Source: Leptolyngbyaceae cyanobacterium JSC-12 (GTDB taxonomy: Bacteria > Cyanobacteriota > Cyanobacteriia > Leptolyngbyales > Leptolyngbyaceae). Taken from it: DNA of 64,000 nucleotides. The notes beneath the pieces were generated by a model. The model saw nothing but the letters and a program-made list of their open reading frames with translations, had not been told where the DNA came from and made no database searches. The translations under genes were made by a program, and so were the position numbers. Shown piece by piece: positions 32,662-52,630 of the stretch. The DNA lies in contig CM001633.1 of assembly GCA_000309945.1 (NCBI GenBank), positions 4,351,912-4,415,911 on the forward strand. Reading direction: 5' to 3'. Position 1 is the stretch's first letter. Every line of letters begins with the position of its first letter.

Positions 32662-33249
32662 TTGGTGAACACTCGGTTTGATATTCATTCCATCGTGCAG
32701 GGATATGCTCAGGGCTACTTTCTCATGTCGGATGAATCAGGCAAAGACTTAGGTTGGTATTCCAGCCGTCAACGTACCCTTATTCCCCTGGATGACCGCT
32801 TTCGTTACCCCAGATCGCTACGGCGAGTGCTCAATCAAAACTGGTTTAGCGTTGCCGTGAACCGAGACTTCAAATCCGTAGTCGAAGGGTGTGCCAATCG
32901 TGAAACCACCTGGATTTCAGACCAACTCAAGGAGATTTACTTAGCCTTGCATGAAGCTGGTTGGGCACACAGCTTTGAAACCTGGCAAGGCGATCAGCTT
33001 GCAGGCGGGATTCTTGGTATCGTCATTGGGGGGGCTTTCATCGGAGAGTCAATGTTTTTTCGCATCCCCAATGGCTCCAAAGTGGCAATGGTCAAGCTGG
33101 TAGAACGGCTACGTCAGCAACAATTCATCCTGTTTGATGCTCAGATGATGAACCCCCATCTAGAGCGATTTGGGGCTTACATCATCCGGAATGATGATTA
33201 CCGTGACCTGTTGCGAGAAGCCTTGCTGGTACGTTGCTCCCTGGAATAG
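32662..33249 (+). CDS. aat: Leucyl/phenylalanyl-tRNA-protein transferase
   Basis: Aat transfers Leu or Phe from tRNA to N-terminal Lys or Arg, creating N-degrons recognised by ClpS. The core has [46 protein letters not shown] (split), [15 protein letters not shown] and an ending [10 protein letters not shown]-like segment. At 195 residues it is close to the usual cyanobacterial length but shorter than the 234-residue E. coli enzyme. Start codon is TTG at 32662 or GTG at 32665. A ClpS-like protein is encoded at 45662-46351 in the same window. Confidence 0.9.
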
Positions 33250-45661: not shown

Positions 45662-46351
45662 TTACCTCCACTCACTTTCAACCGTGAACCGTAGGGGGTA
45701 TTTTTTTACTTTGCTGCGCTGATGAGCGATCGCAACTTTCTCCTGAGCTTCCGTCAAGGGCAGGGCGATGACAAAATGTCGCCCTAGTTGGTGGGTATGA
45801 ATCATGCATTGAATCGCCAGATTCTTCGGTAGTTCAAATACTTGCTCCAGCACTTCCACCACAAATTCCATCGTCGTCGCGTTGTCATTGTGCAGATAAA
45901 CTGGAACCACCGAGGGATGCTCCCAGGGGCACTCTGGGATGGATTGGGTTGCTTCTGCCGACAGATATGGAGAAGTAACCCAACGGAGGTTTTGCAGCGG
46001 TTCCACGGGTTTTTGGGACAGGTTGTTATGCCCACAGCGGGTACAAACCCAGGAGCGCTTTGGCCTTCGGTTTCTGAGCAGTGGGGTGAGGAACGACCGT
46101 CGCAGGGCAAGGCTTTCGTAGAGGTTGCGTCCGCCGCAGCGAGGGCAGGCATCGGGAAAAATTTCCAGATATTCCGCCAGGGTTTGGGGACCACCTTGAG
46201 CCAGAATGCGCTGGGCGCGATCGCGTCGCTGCCTCCAAGTCTGTCTGGATTGAGCCAAGGGGTCAGGTTCCGAATGATCCCACTCAAATTTGATGGCATT
46301 CACTAGACAAATCAGCAGCAACAGCCCCATTAAACTGATAAACCAGATCAT
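45662..46351 (-). CDS. Membrane-anchored zinc-ribbon protein with C-terminal ClpS-like domain
   Basis: The order is an N-terminal transmembrane helix (about 3-20), an Arg/Gln-rich helix, a zinc-ribbon-like part with Cys69, Cys72, Cys103 and Cys106 (CPRC and CTRC), and a ClpS-like domain at about 148-228. In the latter, VYLHNDNATTMEFVVEVLEQ aligns with the ClpS start; Asn155, Asp156, Met161 and His187 match the N-degron-binding residues Asn34, Asp35, Met40 and His66 of E. coli ClpS, while Asp36 is Asn157. ClpS delivers N-degron proteins to ClpAP/ClpC. Known ClpS proteins are about 100 residues and soluble; this layout would present the domain at a membrane. Confidence 0.8.
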   Translation of the reverse strand: MIWFISLMGLLLLICLVNAIKFEWDHSEPDPLAQSRQTWRQRRDRAQRILAQGGPQTLAEYLEIFPDACPRCGGRNLYESLALRRSFLTPLLRNRRPKRSWVCTRCGHNNLSQKPVEPLQNLRWVTSPYLSAEATQSIPECPWEHPSVVPVYLHNDNATTMEFVVEVLEQVFELPKNLAIQCMIHTHQLGRHFVIALPLTEAQEKVAIAHQRSKVKKYPLRFTVESEWR

Positions 46352-46551
46352 AAACCCTCTCTCCTCTGCTTGTTAGGTCGCCTTAGCCTCCGGTTGTGTT
46401 TGCTGCCAACACGGGGATCAACGGTAATAAAGGCTTGTTTTTTAGGAATCAAAAGAATTTGTTTTAGCCAGTCTTAGACGAGCAAATAGGTTCGATCCGT
46501 GCTATCGTTACTATCTAGGCATTGAAAAGTACGCATTTACTATTTAAGGGT

Positions 46552-47490
46552 ATGGCTCAAGCAAGCTGTAAGCAATTAGGGTTATTTGAAAAGAGGAAAA
46601 TAACCGGGCAATCAGAAGTCGATAGTCAGCCTTATTACACTCAGACTTACGGAGCAGTGTACTTAGGAGATAGCCTTGAGCTTATAAAAAACCTTAAAGA
46701 TAGCAGTGTCAACCTAATTTTGACATCCCCCCCATTTGCACTTACCCGCAAGAAGGAATATGGAAATGAAAGTGCAGAAACTTACGTGGATTGGTTTCTT
46801 CCGTTTGCATATGAGTTTAAGAGGGTGCTTACTGAAGATGGATCATTTGTAGTTGATTTAGGGGGGGCTTATCTTCCTGGTAATCCAGTTCGTAGCATCT
46901 ATCAATATGAACTGCTAGTTAGGCTTTGTAAGGAAGTTGGTTTTTTCTTGGCTCAAGAGTTTTATCACTACAATCCTGCTAGGCTTCCCACACCTGCGGA
47001 ATGGGTTACTGTTAGGCGTATTCGAGTAAAAGATTCTGTCAATACTGTTTGGTGGTTATCAAAAACCGAAAATCCAAAAGCTGATAACAGGAAGGTTTTG
47101 AAGCCCTATAGTGAAAGCATGAAACAGCTTTTGAAGAATGGCTATAAAGCTAAATTACGTCCCAGTGGTCACGATATTTCTACCAAGTTTAAAAAAGATA
47201 ACTCAGGAGCGATTCCACCTAATCTTATTGAAGCAGCAAACACGGAATCGAATAGTTCTTATCTGCGGAAATGCAAAGAATCAGGAATGAAACCTCATCC
47301 AGCACGCTTCCCTGCATCTTTTGCCGAGTTCTTCATTAATTTCCTGACTGATGAAAATGATCTTGTACTAGACCCCTTTGCCGGTTCAAACACAACAGGA
47401 TTTGTTGCAGAAAATTTACAAAGACGATGGATGGCTTTTGAGTTGAATGAGGAATACTTGATCGGAAGCCAATATCGTTTTGAGGAGTGA
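46552..47490 (+). CDS. Type II DNA methyltransferase, N4-cytosine or N6-adenine (beta class)
   Basis: Motif IV is LTSPPF, as in N4-cytosine or some N6-adenine enzymes, and motif I is DPFAGSNTTGFVAEN near the C-terminus, so IV precedes I (beta class). FELNEEY ends the SAM region. The middle is presumably the target recognition region. TSPPF/Y favours N4-cytosine. It protects its own DNA from the nuclease encoded next. The start is ATG at 46552; a TTG at 46522 would also work. Codon use is more AT-rich than neighbours. Confidence 0.88.
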   Translation: MAQASCKQLGLFEKRKITGQSEVDSQPYYTQTYGAVYLGDSLELIKNLKDSSVNLILTSPPFALTRKKEYGNESAETYVDWFLPFAYEFKRVLTEDGSFVVDLGGAYLPGNPVRSIYQYELLVRLCKEVGFFLAQEFYHYNPARLPTPAEWVTVRRIRVKDSVNTVWWLSKTENPKADNRKVLKPYSESMKQLLKNGYKAKLRPSGHDISTKFKKDNSGAIPPNLIEAANTESNSSYLRKCKESGMKPHPARFPASFAEFFINFLTDENDLVLDPFAGSNTTGFVAENLQRRWMAFELNEEYLIGSQYRFEE

Positions 47491-47509
47491 TTTTACTGCG
47501 GGGAGAATT

Positions 47510-48514
47510 GTGCCTAGACTTACTAAGGATGATCTTCTCAGTGTTATCACACGCTCTATTTCAGAGTGTGGCTGGAGTATTCTTTATTTAGAAAGTCCGG
47601 TTACTCATCCTTTCAGGCTACAAATTTACAAGAATGATGAAAGCTATCGACTTCGCATTTATATTTGGAATTTGACTCATGGAGGAGGATCGGCGAGACC
47701 TAGAAGCGAATACCGAATTCAAATCACAGGCTTACCTACTAGCTACTTTGAGCCTGAAATCGGGGGGAAAACTCTAATTCTTGGTTGGTGGGATGAAGTT
47801 GGAGTTTTTGCAGGTTTTGACTATAACAAGCATTCTGGAATGCTTGGATCTTCACCCTCAATCCAGATCCGTGAACAATACCTTCGCAATGCCCACATTA
47901 ATGGATTTTCTGCTTGTGACAAAGGAAATGAAGAAATAGCAATTGCATTTAAGCCTAGCTTCTTTATTGAATATGTCAGAGATTTAGAGTCTCTACACGG
48001 TTTTGGAGAATCTGAATATGACCTCGGTGTTCTTGAAACTGTAGCTGAGAACCCTTATGCAGTAAATGATGCAGTAATTGAATCAACTAGTTGGAATCGT
48101 CAAACAGTAATTCAGACTGTCAAGAAAAGATTAAGAGATTCCAGTTTCCAAGACCGAGTTTTGACTGCCTATAGTTACCGATGTGCCATGTGCGGCGTGC
48201 AGCTTGATTTAGTACAAGCAGCCCATATTGTACCAGTAAGCCATGAGAACGGAACTGATCGCACTTCTAATGGGATGGCGTTATGTGCATTGCATCACTA
48301 CGCTTATGATCGCGGTCTTGTATTTGTGGATGAGGACTACTCAATTGAGCTAAATGAAAGGAAGATCAGAAAACTTCGCGCAATATCACGGGATGAAGGG
48401 TTAGAAAAATTTACTGAGGCTCTAAGAGCTTTAATTCTTCTTCCTCCAGCCACATCCGATCGTCCCCATAGGGATTATTTGATTGTTGCCAATTCCTTAC
48501 GTCTTGCAGCCTGA
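47510..48514 (+). CDS. HNH restriction endonuclease, partner of the methyltransferase
   Basis: The C-terminal HNH zinc domain is clear: YRCAMCGVQ, AAHIVPVSHENGTD, NGMALCALHHYAYDRGL. The N-terminal two thirds (LRIYIWNLTHGGGSARP, TLILGWWDEVGVFAGFDY) probably recognise DNA. The gene follows the methyltransferase directly, forming a type II restriction-modification pair. The start is set at GTG 47510 with GGGGAG upstream; a TTG at 47480 would overlap the methyltransferase by 11 bases. Recognition sequence unknown. Confidence 0.82.
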   Translation: MPRLTKDDLLSVITRSISECGWSILYLESPVTHPFRLQIYKNDESYRLRIYIWNLTHGGGSARPRSEYRIQITGLPTSYFEPEIGGKTLILGWWDEVGVFAGFDYNKHSGMLGSSPSIQIREQYLRNAHINGFSACDKGNEEIAIAFKPSFFIEYVRDLESLHGFGESEYDLGVLETVAENPYAVNDAVIESTSWNRQTVIQTVKKRLRDSSFQDRVLTAYSYRCAMCGVQLDLVQAAHIVPVSHENGTDRTSNGMALCALHHYAYDRGLVFVDEDYSIELNERKIRKLRAISRDEGLEKFTEALRALILLPPATSDRPHRDYLIVANSLRLAA

Positions 48515-48644
48515 TAGCATGGAGCTAGAGTTTATACAATTACTAGCAGTCGGCAGCCCAACACTGCACCGCAATGGAGGGAACACAGATTTCGGTGGTG
48601 TTCCAAAGGTTGTCTGCCAATGTTGAGGTTTACTGTTAGCCCTA

Positions 48645-49115
48645 TCAACTCCCCGGACTGATGGTGGTTTTGCCAAAGGTCATGAACACTAGGGTGGTGC
48701 CCGCAGGGCCACGATAGGCTCCCTCGGCGTGGCAGAGACCGCAGGCAAGGGCGGTGAGTTCCCAGGCTTCCTGTTCCGAACAGTGCAGTTTGCGGGTGGT
48801 GAGTCGTTCTACTCCCTGGGCTTCCCCATAGGTTCGCAGGGTGCGGGCATGGTTCTGGAGAACGGGTGCCACGGAGGGATGATCCCACCCCCAGAGCCAA
48901 GTGCCATCCAGGGTGTTGTAGGTACCAATGATTTGTACCGGGGCGGTGATGATCTGTCCTCTGGGGTTGGTGAACAGGATGGTGCCCTGGGCTTGATCGA
49001 CCTGCCAATCACACTGTCCCATCTGCCAGAGGCTATCCTGGGCTTGAGTTTTGAAACGGAGTTCTTCCACGCTGCGGGCCAGCAGGATGGGGTATTCCGG
49101 TGGTTCAGGATTCAT
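48645..49115 (-). CDS. DUF6882-like protein
   Basis: The 156-residue product contains WQVDQAQGTILFTNPRGQII, a GTYNTLDGTWLWGWDHPSV segment and CHAEGAYRGPAGTTLVFM, patterns I associate with DUF6882, small proteins of unknown role seen among polymorphic-toxin immunity-like genes. No signal peptide or membrane helix. It is the 3'-most gene of a minus-strand run that starts near 53419. Confidence 0.6.
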   Translation of the reverse strand: MNPEPPEYPILLARSVEELRFKTQAQDSLWQMGQCDWQVDQAQGTILFTNPRGQIITAPVQIIGTYNTLDGTWLWGWDHPSVAPVLQNHARTLRTYGEAQGVERLTTRKLHCSEQEAWELTALACGLCHAEGAYRGPAGTTLVFMTFGKTTISPGS

Positions 49116-49142: not shown

Positions 49143-50435
49143 TCAAGAGGTCAGCTTTTTTATCCAGTACCCAGGGGGCGCTTGGGGAGGTTGGGTGCGA
49201 CCGTAAATATCGAGGAGGCTGTTATAGCGGCTCAAGGCTGCTTCGTATCGCCCTAACTGCTCCAGAAGCAGGGCTTGATTTTGCCAGCAGCGATCGTTGT
49301 CAGGGTCGATCGCCAACGCTCCTGCATAGCTGATCACTGCTTCCTCTAGCCGTTGCAGTTTGGTGAGCAGTAATGCCTGGTTATACCAGCAGCCCACATC
49401 GCCGGGGTCAATGGCTAAAGAACGGTCGAAACTGGCCAGTGCCGCTTCTGCCCTATCGGAGTGGGTGCTGAGCAGCATGGCTCGTTTGTACCAAAGCTGG
49501 GCATTGTCTGGATAGCGTTCTAACGCCCGGTCATAGTTTTCCAAGAGCAGCGTAAAAATTTCCTGCTGGGGATAATTCAATTTCTCCAAGGCATCATTCA
49601 CGGCCAAATCATGCCAATCGGGGTTTAACTCGAAGGCTGTTTGATAGGCGGCTAGTGCTTCTTGATAACGCTCAGCTTGCATCAAAACATCACCCTTGCG
49701 TCTCCAGATCCAATCCGGTGTTTCGCCATATTGATTCGGGTGATTATTGCCTTCGGGAAATTCGCTCAGTTGTTGATCATAGGCATCCAGAAGTTCCTGT
49801 TCTCGACCAAGCAGGGCATAGGCTTTGCAGCGATTTTCCTGGGCTGTTGCCTCTAGACAATAAGCTTGGTTGTAGGTATCAATAGCCTCTGCATAGCGCC
49901 CCAGACTGAACAGAATATTCCCCTTGTCTCCGTAATAGGCCCCCAATGCCTGATCGTTCTCTAGATCATCTTCTGCCTCTAAAAGGGCGATCGCTTCGTT
50001 GTAGCTGGCGATCGCCTCGTCTAATCGTCCCAAGTGAGCCAATAAACTGCCCCGGTTCGCCCACAAATCGCTGTAATCTAACACATCCACATCAGGCAGA
50101 TCCGCAAACCCCGCTAGTGCCCGTTCGTAGCTGGCGATCGCGTCTGTAAACCGCTGGAGGTCATGCAGTGCCGCGGCGCGACAGGCCCAAGCAGGGCTGT
50201 GGTCTGGATCAAGCGCGAGGATGCGATCGCAGGAAACCAGCGCTTCGGCATAGTCTCCGGTTTCCCTCTGCTGTTTGGCTAGCTCATACCAGGCATCGAG
50301 GTGCTCAGGGTCTAGTGCGACAGCTTGCCGAAACAGGGCGATCGCGTCCTGACGGGTAGACCCATCTGCTAATGCCGCAAACCCAGCCTGATAATAGTCC
50401 TCAGCACTTGAGTACAGTGGCAATTCTTGACTCAT
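49143..50435 (-). CDS. Tetratricopeptide repeat protein
   Basis: The 430 residues are made almost entirely of TPR units, about eight to ten (for example AWYELAKQQRETGDYAEALV, AWACRAAALHDLQRFTDAIA and CWYNQALLLTKLQRLEEAVI). TPR proteins bind partner proteins. There is no signal peptide. Its ATG overlaps the VOC gene stop by four bases, so the two are coupled. Confidence 0.85.
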   Translation of the reverse strand: MSQELPLYSSAEDYYQAGFAALADGSTRQDAIALFRQAVALDPEHLDAWYELAKQQRETGDYAEALVSCDRILALDPDHSPAWACRAAALHDLQRFTDAIASYERALAGFADLPDVDVLDYSDLWANRGSLLAHLGRLDEAIASYNEAIALLEAEDDLENDQALGAYYGDKGNILFSLGRYAEAIDTYNQAYCLEATAQENRCKAYALLGREQELLDAYDQQLSEFPEGNNHPNQYGETPDWIWRRKGDVLMQAERYQEALAAYQTAFELNPDWHDLAVNDALEKLNYPQQEIFTLLLENYDRALERYPDNAQLWYKRAMLLSTHSDRAEAALASFDRSLAIDPGDVGCWYNQALLLTKLQRLEEAVISYAGALAIDPDNDRCWQNQALLLEQLGRYEAALSRYNSLLDIYGRTQPPQAPPGYWIKKLTS

Positions 50436-50812
50436 ACCGTTTGCGCCTCCTCATTTTGGGAAAGGAGATGCACTACCCCTGAGGGGTCTGAAATCCAGTG
50501 GCCTCGAAAGTCGCCAAGGGGTTCCAATTCATCGCGAACCGGGGTTTGGGCTGCTGTCAGATAGGCCACTGCCCCCTCCAAGTCGTTGGTGGATAGCTCC
50601 AACCATACATCCGCCTGACTGTAGTGGGGTACTTCATCCAACCACAGTCGCATCGCTCCAAACTGAAATACATGGGAGGTGTCCCGTTGTCCTAGGTAAG
50701 GTAATCGCAATGTATCTCGATAGAAGGCAACGGTTTTTGCAAATCGAAATCGAGGAATTTTGAGGGCAATATTGCTGCCTCCTGAAAACCTAGGCTGAGG
50801 ATTTGGAAGCAT
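50432..50812 (-). CDS. VOC (glyoxalase/bleomycin resistance) family protein
   Basis: One paired beta-alpha-beta-beta-beta module of about 126 residues: TVAFYRDTLRLPYLG, FGAMRLWLDEVPHY, DVWLELSTNDLEGAVAYL, and WISDPSGVVHLLSQ. VOC proteins bind metal or small ligands as dimers; no clear metal triad is assigned here. ATGA overlap with the TPR gene suggests translational coupling. Confidence 0.8.
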   Translation of the reverse strand: MLPNPQPRFSGGSNIALKIPRFRFAKTVAFYRDTLRLPYLGQRDTSHVFQFGAMRLWLDEVPHYSQADVWLELSTNDLEGAVAYLTAAQTPVRDELEPLGDFRGHWISDPSGVVHLLSQNEEAQTV

Positions 50813-50836: not shown

Positions 50837-51750
50837 TTAGCGATCGCTATAAAACAAAACATTTGTGAAATTTCCACTTTGCAAGTCCGAGGGTTGAACC
50901 AAACAATAAAGAGTCGAGTCATGCAGTTCTACCCCCAGTTGGCCTACCACACGAAATAGCAATTCATAGACCGGAAAGCTTTCACCAAATGCCAGGGGAA
51001 ACAGTTGCTTGCGGGGATCAGACTGGCGAAAGGCGGGGTAGCCGCCCAATCGGTGTCCGTCACCATAGAGAAGGTATAGTGCTTCTTCTAATAAAGGATC
51101 ATTGCTGGCGCGATCGCGGAGTTCTCCCAGGGCGTAGTCATAGTTTTCAGCAAAGAATTCGCTTGTGCTTAAGGCTTCAACCCAGGTGGTTAGCCCCCCT
51201 GCATCCATCGGGGCAAGTTTGATTTGAAACCGCAGACTTAACCGTTCAGGGACGATGGGATGCTCAAAGGGGGTAGAAAGCTAAAGTCAGTGATGAGATC
51301 TTCAACGGAGAGAATCGGGTCTGGGAAAAAGAGAACTTTTGCCCCTGCTAATTCCATCAATTCTGAATAGGACATCGAGGCTCGTGCTTCTGTGGCAAAC
51401 CAGGTATGGTTCCATTCCCAGGTGGGTTTATCCACTACATAAAATTGCAAGATCCCTGATGTGGGAAACCCTTCCAGCGGAGGGACTTCGGCGAAGTTCA
51501 TCTGGGCTAACAAGGAAGCTGGTTTGTCGTCAATGTAGGGATAGTCTATGCCTGTAGGAAGATAGGGTGTTCCTCCGAAATGGCTTTCCCAGGGTAGGGG
51601 TGAGTTACCTTGAGAACCGATAGTTTCGATCGCAACAAAGGGTCGAATGGTAGATTCGATCGCCGCAATTTCTGCGTCTGAAATTTCTTCCCGCAGAATC
51701 TGACGGAGTGCTTCACTGCAACCTAAATTTTCGAGTCGATAATTTGTCAT
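50837..51750 (-). pseudogene. DUF1963 (YwqG-like) gene broken by a frameshift
   Basis: The first part (51750 to 51238) reads PLPWESHFGGTPYLPTGIDY, LLAQMNFAEVPPLEGFP and DFSFLPPLSIP, then a stop at 51238. The second part continues in another frame to 50837 with RFQIKLAPMDAGG, GDGHRLGGYPAFRQSDPRK and ends LFYSDR. In YwqG/DUF1963 proteins these parts are one protein, with GHKIGGYPxFxQxDPR after the FxF segment. Shifting frame at the run AAAGGGGG (plus strand 51266-51274) joins them as FLPPFEHPIVPERLSLRF. A single base is missing, so the gene is either inactivated, slipped by polymerase, or a sequencing error. Confidence 0.75.
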
Positions 51751-51964: not shown

Positions 51965-52630
51965 TCATGATTCAATCATTTGTCCTATTTTTAGAAGGTT
52001 GCCATCTGGATCAACGATGTGAAATTCCCGCATTCCCCAGGGTTTGTCTTCTAAGGAGCTAATGCGAGGAATACCTGCGGTGGGTAAATTCAACGTTTGG
52101 AATGCCTGGAAGAATTCATCGATATGCGTGACTCGTAAATAGCAGGCCAGATAGGATTCGGCGGGCACAATATCTGGGAAAAAACTGAGATGAATTTCCA
52201 GAGCACCCCGATATAGAATGGCATAATCAGCGTTTGGATTGCTCGGATAATGACTCTCAAATCCAAGTTTTTGATAGAAGTCAACACTTTTAGCAATATC
52301 TCGTGAAACTAAAATAGGAATGGCTTGATCAGATAGCATCACTAAGGTTCTCCACTGATTGAGTAAGGTTTTCCAGGCGGTGTAGTCGCCCCAAAAGTTG
52401 AGTTGGTCAGAGCAATAGGTGCAGGTTTCATCAGCAATGGAGCGAGCGAGTTCCCACCACTGATCACGCAACTGACTGAGGGTTTGAGCCTCTGTTGCAG
52501 CGATCCAGTTCTGAACATATTTAGGGCTAAAATCAAAGGCATCTAGACCGCAGCAGGCGGCGACGCAATGGACTTCGCAGCAGCGTAGCAGCGACCAGAG
52601 GGGTTTGGGAATGGTGATTTCTTGTGCCAT
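51965..52630 (-). CDS. DUF6331-like domain fused to a VOC domain
   Basis: Residues about 1-100 contain PLWSLLRCCEVHCVAACCGLDAFDF with many Cys and match a DUF6331-like pattern; residues about 105-221 are a VOC module (AIPILVSRDIAKSVDFYQKL, LEIHLSFFPD, GMREFHIVDPDGNLLKIGQ). The fusion of these two is uncommon in my experience. The VOC end FHIVDPDGNLL is typical of the bleomycin-resistance branch. No membrane segment. Confidence 0.7.
   Translation of the reverse strand: MAQEITIPKPLWSLLRCCEVHCVAACCGLDAFDFSPKYVQNWIAATEAQTLSQLRDQWWELARSIADETCTYCSDQLNFWGDYTAWKTLLNQWRTLVMLSDQAIPILVSRDIAKSVDFYQKLGFESHYPSNPNADYAILYRGALEIHLSFFPDIVPAESYLACYLRVTHIDEFFQAFQTLNLPTAGIPRISSLEDKPWGMREFHIVDPDGNLLKIGQMIES

Follow-up and report, generated by a model that had tools for sequence, protein, structure and literature searches.

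A predicted membrane-anchored ClpS fusion protein of cyanobacteria, a candidate N-degron receptor with an altered Clp-docking face

The genome of Leptolyngbyaceae cyanobacterium JSC-12 encodes a 229-aa protein in which a predicted membrane helix, a CxxC/CxxC module and a ClpS domain follow one another in a single chain. The gene has an ATG start and lies at 45662..46351 on the minus strand of the window, the whole stretch of 64,000 nucleotides analysed here. What might a cell do with such a protein? We give about even weight to an anchored N-degron receptor that would concentrate or withhold its substrates. Such a receptor would cross the membrane once, and its cytoplasmic part would consist of the CxxC/CxxC module, probably a zinc ribbon, and the ClpS domain. 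The ClpS domain would bind proteins that begin with a bulky hydrophobic residue, such ends arising from proteolysis or from Aat, and these proteins would be held at the cytoplasmic face of the membrane, while the ribbon may mediate oligomerisation or the binding of a partner or nucleic acid. Because a free N-terminal tail is absent and the docking residue Glu82 is lost, any hand-over to ClpC would have to differ from that of E. coli. Delivery to ClpC is a tentative possibility, and so is a role that consists mainly in sequestering or sensing without Clp; our estimates for the receptor, for a ClpC adaptor, for a reused domain and for a passenger gene overlap.

Domain architecture and the N-degron pocket

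The ORF is preceded by a Shine-Dalgarno-like stretch, GGAGAGAGGG; a scan for promoters and terminators gave no more signals than shuffled sequences did. The initial annotation had placed a transmembrane helix ahead of the ClpS domain, and this is borne out by the hydrophobic, uncharged residues 2-20 (46292..46348, minus strand). In the window copy the 19-residue span that starts at residue 2 has a mean Kyte-Doolittle value of 2.55, and the stretch is modelled as part of a helix spanning 2-26 or 2-27. Residues 1-20 are uncharged and hold the hydrophobic maximum in all three full-length copies that we found. Positive and negative charges are near balance (seven and six) across residues 21-60 of the window copy, and the cytoplasmic placement of the remainder is a predicted topology. 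From these sequence features we consider it highly probable that the protein is membrane-anchored.

The zinc ribbon proposed alongside the helix stands in part. Both cysteine pairs are present (C69/C72 and C103/C106, 46034..46147, minus strand), and C69xxC72 and C103xxC106 are identical in the protein of genome G476 and the translation from genome G026. Zinc binding itself is putative, since the fusion protein falls short of the cut-off of every Pfam zinc-ribbon model (those listed have E values of 0.03 upward) and the CxxC region is modelled at low confidence. When the N-terminal module was modelled alone, the mean pLDDT was 65 and none of the Foldseek matches had E<=0.001; the best match was a PARP-1 zinc domain (E 1.3, probability 0.06).

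Is the C-terminal part a ClpS domain or merely something with the shared L7/L12 fold? As the initial annotation had it, residues 145-229 (45665..45919, minus strand) form a ClpS domain: PF02617 matches residues 146-223 with E=2.1e-20 and 72.7 bits against a cut-off of 23, and sequence comparison of the fusion protein with ClpS chains in the PDB gives matches from E=5e-8. An AlphaFold prediction, made from 37 rows (the window protein, its relative from contig L038 and 35 viral-contig ClpS sequences), has a pLDDT of 95-98 over residues 151-220, with the CxxC region poorly modelled. Comparison of the predicted structure with E. coli ClpS, which the annotation had put forward as a check, shows the fold to be present: VIA-align on the Foldseek PDB matches gives Z 16.4 and an rmsd of 1.0 A over 82 residues for E. 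coli ClpS (2wa8_C). The same method gives Z 8.6 for L7/L12 and Z 8.9 for yeast Ubr1, which argues for a ClpS domain rather than the shared L7/L12 fold alone. No Pfam row for L7/L12 appeared on the fusion protein in a search at E<=10, in which the HMMER filters drop most matches above 0.1.

In Caulobacter ClpS, according to the accessible part of PMC12493166, the alpha-amino group of the N-degron is contacted by Asn47, Asp49 and His79, and eleven residues are listed for the specificity pocket. Compared with E. coli and Caulobacter ClpS, the window copy keeps N155, D156, T159, M161, V164, M183, H187 and L220, and the equivalents of N34, D35, T38, M40 (the gatekeeper methionine), V43, M62, H66 and L99 are retained in all three full copies. 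The Asn, Asp, Met and His pocket residues that had been picked out from the window sequence are therefore all in place. Three positions depart: D36 is N157 (Caulobacter Asp49), V65 is T186 (Val78) and V33 is H154 (Leu46), the last also being His in the cyanobacterial ClpS1 compared. Thus the fusion keeps the Asn and the His of the alpha-amino-contacting residues and has Asn for the Asp, giving an NDN motif at residues 155-157 (45881..45889, minus strand).

The replacement of Asp36 by Asn, likewise noticed earlier, proves not to be peculiar to the fusion. Among the 72 cyanobacterial rows, ClpS1 of G476 alone has it, and the NDN motif is common to the fusion and 33 of 60 viral-contig rows, a fraction that is biased because the search pattern admitted only Asp or Asn at this position and the 80 most query-like of 153 relatives were kept. 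As judged from these alignments, the substitution is not unique and by itself is no argument against N-degron binding. The Asn in place of a residue that touches the alpha-amino group, together with the Thr in place of V65, does count against the receptor. With most of the pocket retained, we think it likely that the ClpS domain binds N-degrons.

The docking face and the host Clp machinery

Could the bound substrates be passed on to a Clp protease? ClpS docks through Glu79, Glu82 and Lys84, with Glu82 forming a salt bridge to E. coli ClpA (PMC12493166, in the part available). The corresponding face of the fusion spans residues 200-205 (45737..45754, minus strand) and includes T200 (Glu79), Q203 (Glu82) and K205 (Lys84), so the docking set is incomplete: Thr/Gln/Lys in the window copy and Glu/Gln/Lys in G026 and G476. 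All three full copies have Gln in place of Glu82, against Glu in 136 of 137 other ClpS rows (60 viral, 72 cyanobacterial, four plasmid and one distant phylum member, G088, which is the exception with Thr); the three targets and two NACHT-fusion rows were set apart from this count. Lys84 is kept in the fusion and likewise in 59 of the 60 viral rows and all four plasmid rows, whereas 71 of the 72 cyanobacterial ClpS1 and ClpS2 rows have Tyr.

The N-terminal side of the domain differs as well. E. coli ClpS has a free N-terminal extension that is taken into the channel of ClpA, and delivery is inhibited when this entry is blocked (PMC9663308, from the accessible text). The fusion has no free disordered extension; its ClpS core is preceded by 144 residues that include the N-terminal hydrophobic helix. 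With the tail replaced by a linker behind the CxxC module and the helix, classical delivery would be unlikely without some change.

The initial annotation had raised the possibility of a membrane-tethered adaptor feeding Clp protease, and that proposal is weakened by the changes at Glu82 and, in the window copy, Glu79, and by the anchored linker in place of a free tail. An active adaptor at the membrane would dock ClpC through the ClpS domain and feed it N-degron proteins, for example cleaved membrane proteins. It could draw on the retained Lys84, on the Glu79 of G026 and G476, and on a tandem proline at the junction of linker and core in those two of the three copies; the lysine and the prolines would suit Clp docking and count against the anchored receptor. 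A ClpC is also present in the window genome, where a Clp_N search found three two-repeat proteins, one of them ClpC-like (N-domain against chloroplast ClpC1, E=3e-83) and the other two read as ClpB from their size and sequence. Yet nearly all cyanobacterial ClpS1 and ClpS2 have Tyr at position 84, so the host ClpC may be adapted to a different surface. On balance we hold an active ClpC adaptor to be unlikely, though the strongest of the alternatives to the anchored receptor.

The fusion is not the only ClpS of its host. As the annotation had asked, a normal clpS is also found in the window genome, which has two further ClpS frames of 98 and 111 aa, and G026 and G476 each have two more ClpS besides the fusion; we read these pairs, by sequence, as ClpS1 and ClpS2. 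The aat gene reported from the same window is real (32662-33249, plus strand; PF03588, 207.9 bits), but at about 12 kb from the fusion gene it is ordinary context.

If the protein has kept the pocket but lost the free tail and some of its docking residues, it might be a horizontally spreading membrane N-degron receptor uncoupled from the Clp unfoldase, which would shield, sense or relocate N-degron proteins independently of Clp. This stricter version of the receptor is a doubtful proposition, more so than the adaptor. If true, it would be a Clp-independent use of ClpS in bacteria. A third, membrane-anchored ClpS whose pocket is mostly intact and whose docking face is altered would make the separability of N-degron recognition from Clp delivery testable: the domain is a small one, ready variants exist in the three natural copies, and every change can be tested separately.

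Related ClpS proteins and membrane partners

How does the fusion compare with known ClpS proteins? With E. coli and Caulobacter ClpS, and with those of phages and viral contigs, it shares the fold, most pocket residues and Lys84. It differs from all of these in having an anchor and CxxC module rather than a free disordered tail, in the loss of Glu82 and in its long branch. ClpS1 and ClpS2 are the ClpS adaptors named in a review of cyanobacterial Clp (PMC7966870), the available portion of which contains none of the terms 'transmembrane', 'zinc' or 'ClpS3'. These two have the pocket core in common with the fusion, and all three would act with one and the same host ClpC; the ClpS1 and ClpS2 sequences retrieved are about 78-113 aa long and lack its N-terminal module, those in the alignment have a shorter third helix, and the fusion is additional to both.

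A protein with TM, zinc ribbon and ClpS together was not found in the literature on ClpS fusions, membrane adaptors and cyanobacterial Clp, as far as the accessible texts go. The nearest case there is the partner of the Skillet-2 lipocone (PMC12419801, in the part available), in which a single TM is combined either with a zinc ribbon or with an HTH plus a ClpS-L7/L12 domain. The likeness lies in one TM followed by a cytoplasmic zinc ribbon or ClpS/L12-fold domain; the difference is that ribbon and ClpS/L12 are alternatives in the Skillet-2 partners, while the fusion has both in one protein. No lipocone-type match was obtained among the cassette neighbours scanned with Pfam, which may have no model for that domain.

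A second alternative is that the ClpS domain has been put to another use, simple protein-protein contact without N-degron binding, for instance in signalling or sensing within a conflict-related cassette. Besides occurring in the single-TM partners of Skillet-2, L12/ClpS domains are inserted in vWA components of conflict systems (PMC7159879, accessible sections), and the fusion gene moves together with a set of genes for DUF proteins. The retention of the N34, D35, M40 and H66 equivalents speaks against such reuse, and neither the fusion protein nor its DUF6882 neighbour has a PADLOC match at E<=0.001, giving no link to a catalogued defence system. We judge it improbable, and the anchored receptor remains the reading that we prefer.

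ClpS genes have also been reported from jumbo phages (PMC7824862) and from a JAB/ThiS operon (PMC1779556), both according to the parts of these papers available. IMG/VR viral contigs hold many ClpS genes, with 153 relatives in one scan, of which 80 were kept (L126-L205); a few of them look like host clpS of the E. coli type (e.g. L164, L166). A very divergent ClpS at L051:4611-4943 (G047) has an NDP pocket motif and Val at position 84.

Two long proteins combine NACHT, TPR and ClpS, one of 820 aa at L124:4421-6883 (G039) and one of 791 aa at L125:2612-4987 (G113). Each carries a NACHT NTPase and TPR, a Gly-rich middle that by eye is probably membrane-spanning, and, at the C-terminus, a domain like that of ClpS2 (E values of 2.3e-10 and 5.6e-10 for Pfam ClpS). 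The His66 equivalent is Asp in one of the two, and position 82 is Glu in one and Ala in one. These proteins represent another type of cyanobacterial ClpS fusion, resembling the one described here in having a ClpS domain on a probable membrane protein and differing in that the domain is ClpS2-like and sits on a NACHT NTPase of about 800 aa.

Distribution, selection and the mobile cassette

The fusion is full-length in three genomes of two families, with decayed pieces in two more. A search across cyanobacteria for the TM-zinc ribbon-ClpS architecture, suggested by the annotation, added two full copies to that of the window: one in G026, of the same family (84% identity), and one in G476, of a different family (86% identity). 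The latter genome contains the contig of L038, the MAG record Thermosynechococcus sp. M98_K2018_005. The G026 and G476 proteins are 95% identical to each other. A 254-bp piece in G039 has 96.9% DNA identity to both G026 and G476 and 81% protein identity to residues 124-212 of the window copy; a 293-bp piece in G486 lies at a contig edge, contains an internal stop and is 96-97% identical in DNA to G476 and G026.

These copies were recovered from phylum, class, family and order genome sets that overlap. The 386 phylum genomes gave five matches, namely the window genome (G000) at full length, the G039 piece and three ClpS-domain matches. Eight matches came from 42 family genomes, two of them full length and six to the ClpS domain (E 4e-4 to 8e-4), and the order-level search, over the same 42 genomes, had the fusion in two. 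The N-terminal module alone, searched in 388 class genomes, had 21 matches: the three full copies, the two pieces and 16 weak ones (E 4.5e-4 to 0.0094, identity 25-37%), 14 of these 16 with internal stops. Among 29 genomes of the G476 family there were three matches, one full length and two to canonical ClpS1. A collection of 84,980 species, scanned by a method that detects close relatives only and possibly omitting the window's own genome, returned one relative, L038. No full-protein homologue was obtained in plasmids and none was confirmed in viral contigs; in phages there was likewise no full-protein homologue, and the one match, to the CxxC region, was in a single phage at E=0.9.

The matches listed also include longer ClpS frames, among them frames of 212 and 625 aa, so that further ClpS fusions may exist; three of these longer frames were inspected. 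Those of G052 (267 aa), G047 (198 aa) and G071 (336 aa) have by eye no TM-ClpS architecture and, from their sequences, look like upstream read-through or alternative starts. The matches with internal stops in G546 and G527 are canonical ClpS1 with upstream sequence.

Is the gene maintained? Whole-gene dN/dS by NG86 is 0.16 (window-G476), 0.23 (window-G026) and 0.23 (G026-G476), which points to purifying selection. The CxxC region (residues 61-115) has the lowest values in both window comparisons (0.09 and 0.10) and 0 between G026 and G476, and the ClpS part has 0.19, 0.31 and 0.33. YN00 gives higher values, 0.21, 0.28 and 0.38 for the whole gene and up to 0.56 for the ClpS part. This evidence of conservation is thin, since only three copies are full length and two of these have proteins that are 95% identical.

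Where the domain came from is less clear-cut. A tree was built from 64 rows with 85 columns. It unites the three targets in a single clade (99/100), whose branch has a length of 3.49 changes per site, and the best tree places them on the non-cyanobacterial side, outside ClpS1 and ClpS2. The sample behind this tree is non-random, with few columns and a long target branch: cyanobacterial and plasmid rows were taken by a regular expression that misses L102, L103 and L105; L104, L034 and viral rows shorter than 80 aa were left out; and exact duplicates were removed, near-copies staying in the residue counts. AU tests reject neither a grouping of the targets with the cyanobacterial and NACHT rows (p 0.396) nor one with the viral rows (p 0.136). 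An origin from phage ClpS is suggested by the NDN motif, and the AU tests favour no single placement.

The fusion gene belongs to a row of genes best seen in G476, where a DUF6331-glyoxalase gene, DUF1963, glyoxalase, TPR, DUF6882 and finally the fusion gene are tightly packed; the two short genes that come next resemble a toxin-antitoxin pair. The window row is the same at 77-86% DNA identity, and all of its genes are on the minus strand: the DUF6331-glyoxalase protein (51965..52630), DUF1963 (50837..51750, split into ORFs 50837-51208 and 51238-51750 where G476 has a single 304-aa ORF), the glyoxalase-like protein (50432..50812; PF00903 E=0.003, below cut-off, with a counterpart in G476), the TPR protein (49143..50435) and DUF6882 (48645..49115; PF21813 E=2e-39), which in G476 is the immediate neighbour of the fusion gene. 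In the window these two genes are separated by a 2.3-kb block of an N6_N4 methyltransferase and an MTaX1-HNH gene (46366..48636). G476 lacks this block, and 8 bp lie between its two flanking alignments; the block is likely a small restriction-modification system. This module is compact and begins about 14 bp upstream of the fusion start codon.

In G026 the row lies in two parts. The fusion gene and the genes that follow it are at 5.01 Mb (1589 bp, 95.7% to G476) and the rest at 4.46 Mb (93.5-95.2% to G476); their break points map to one place in the G476 row, to within a few bases, and both break ends carry the same transposase-like ORFs. An insertion sequence therefore most likely split a contiguous row in G026. 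The DNA identity of 93-96% between G026 and G476 across families, together with the patchy presence of the gene, argues for recent horizontal transfer. The cassette DNA had no megablast match in plasmids. DUF6882 is not named in the literature searched, and polymorphic-toxin immunity is one idea for a cassette holding DUF1963, DUF6882 and DUF6331.

That the fusion gene is a mere passenger, carried along on a mobile cassette in decay and playing no lasting part in the host, as the fragments in G039 and G486, the transposase-like ORFs and restriction-modification block around the gene and the broken neighbours could suggest, is the least probable of the alternatives, given that the gene is full length in three genomes under the whole-gene dN/dS reported above and has stayed intact in all three while DUF1963 broke in the window and TPR and DUF6882 in G026. 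Just downstream of the fusion cassette, at L038:7702-10816, there is a prokaryotic Argonaute (PADLOC pAgo, 1017.6 bits) that adjoins a short Cmr2 N-terminal ORF.
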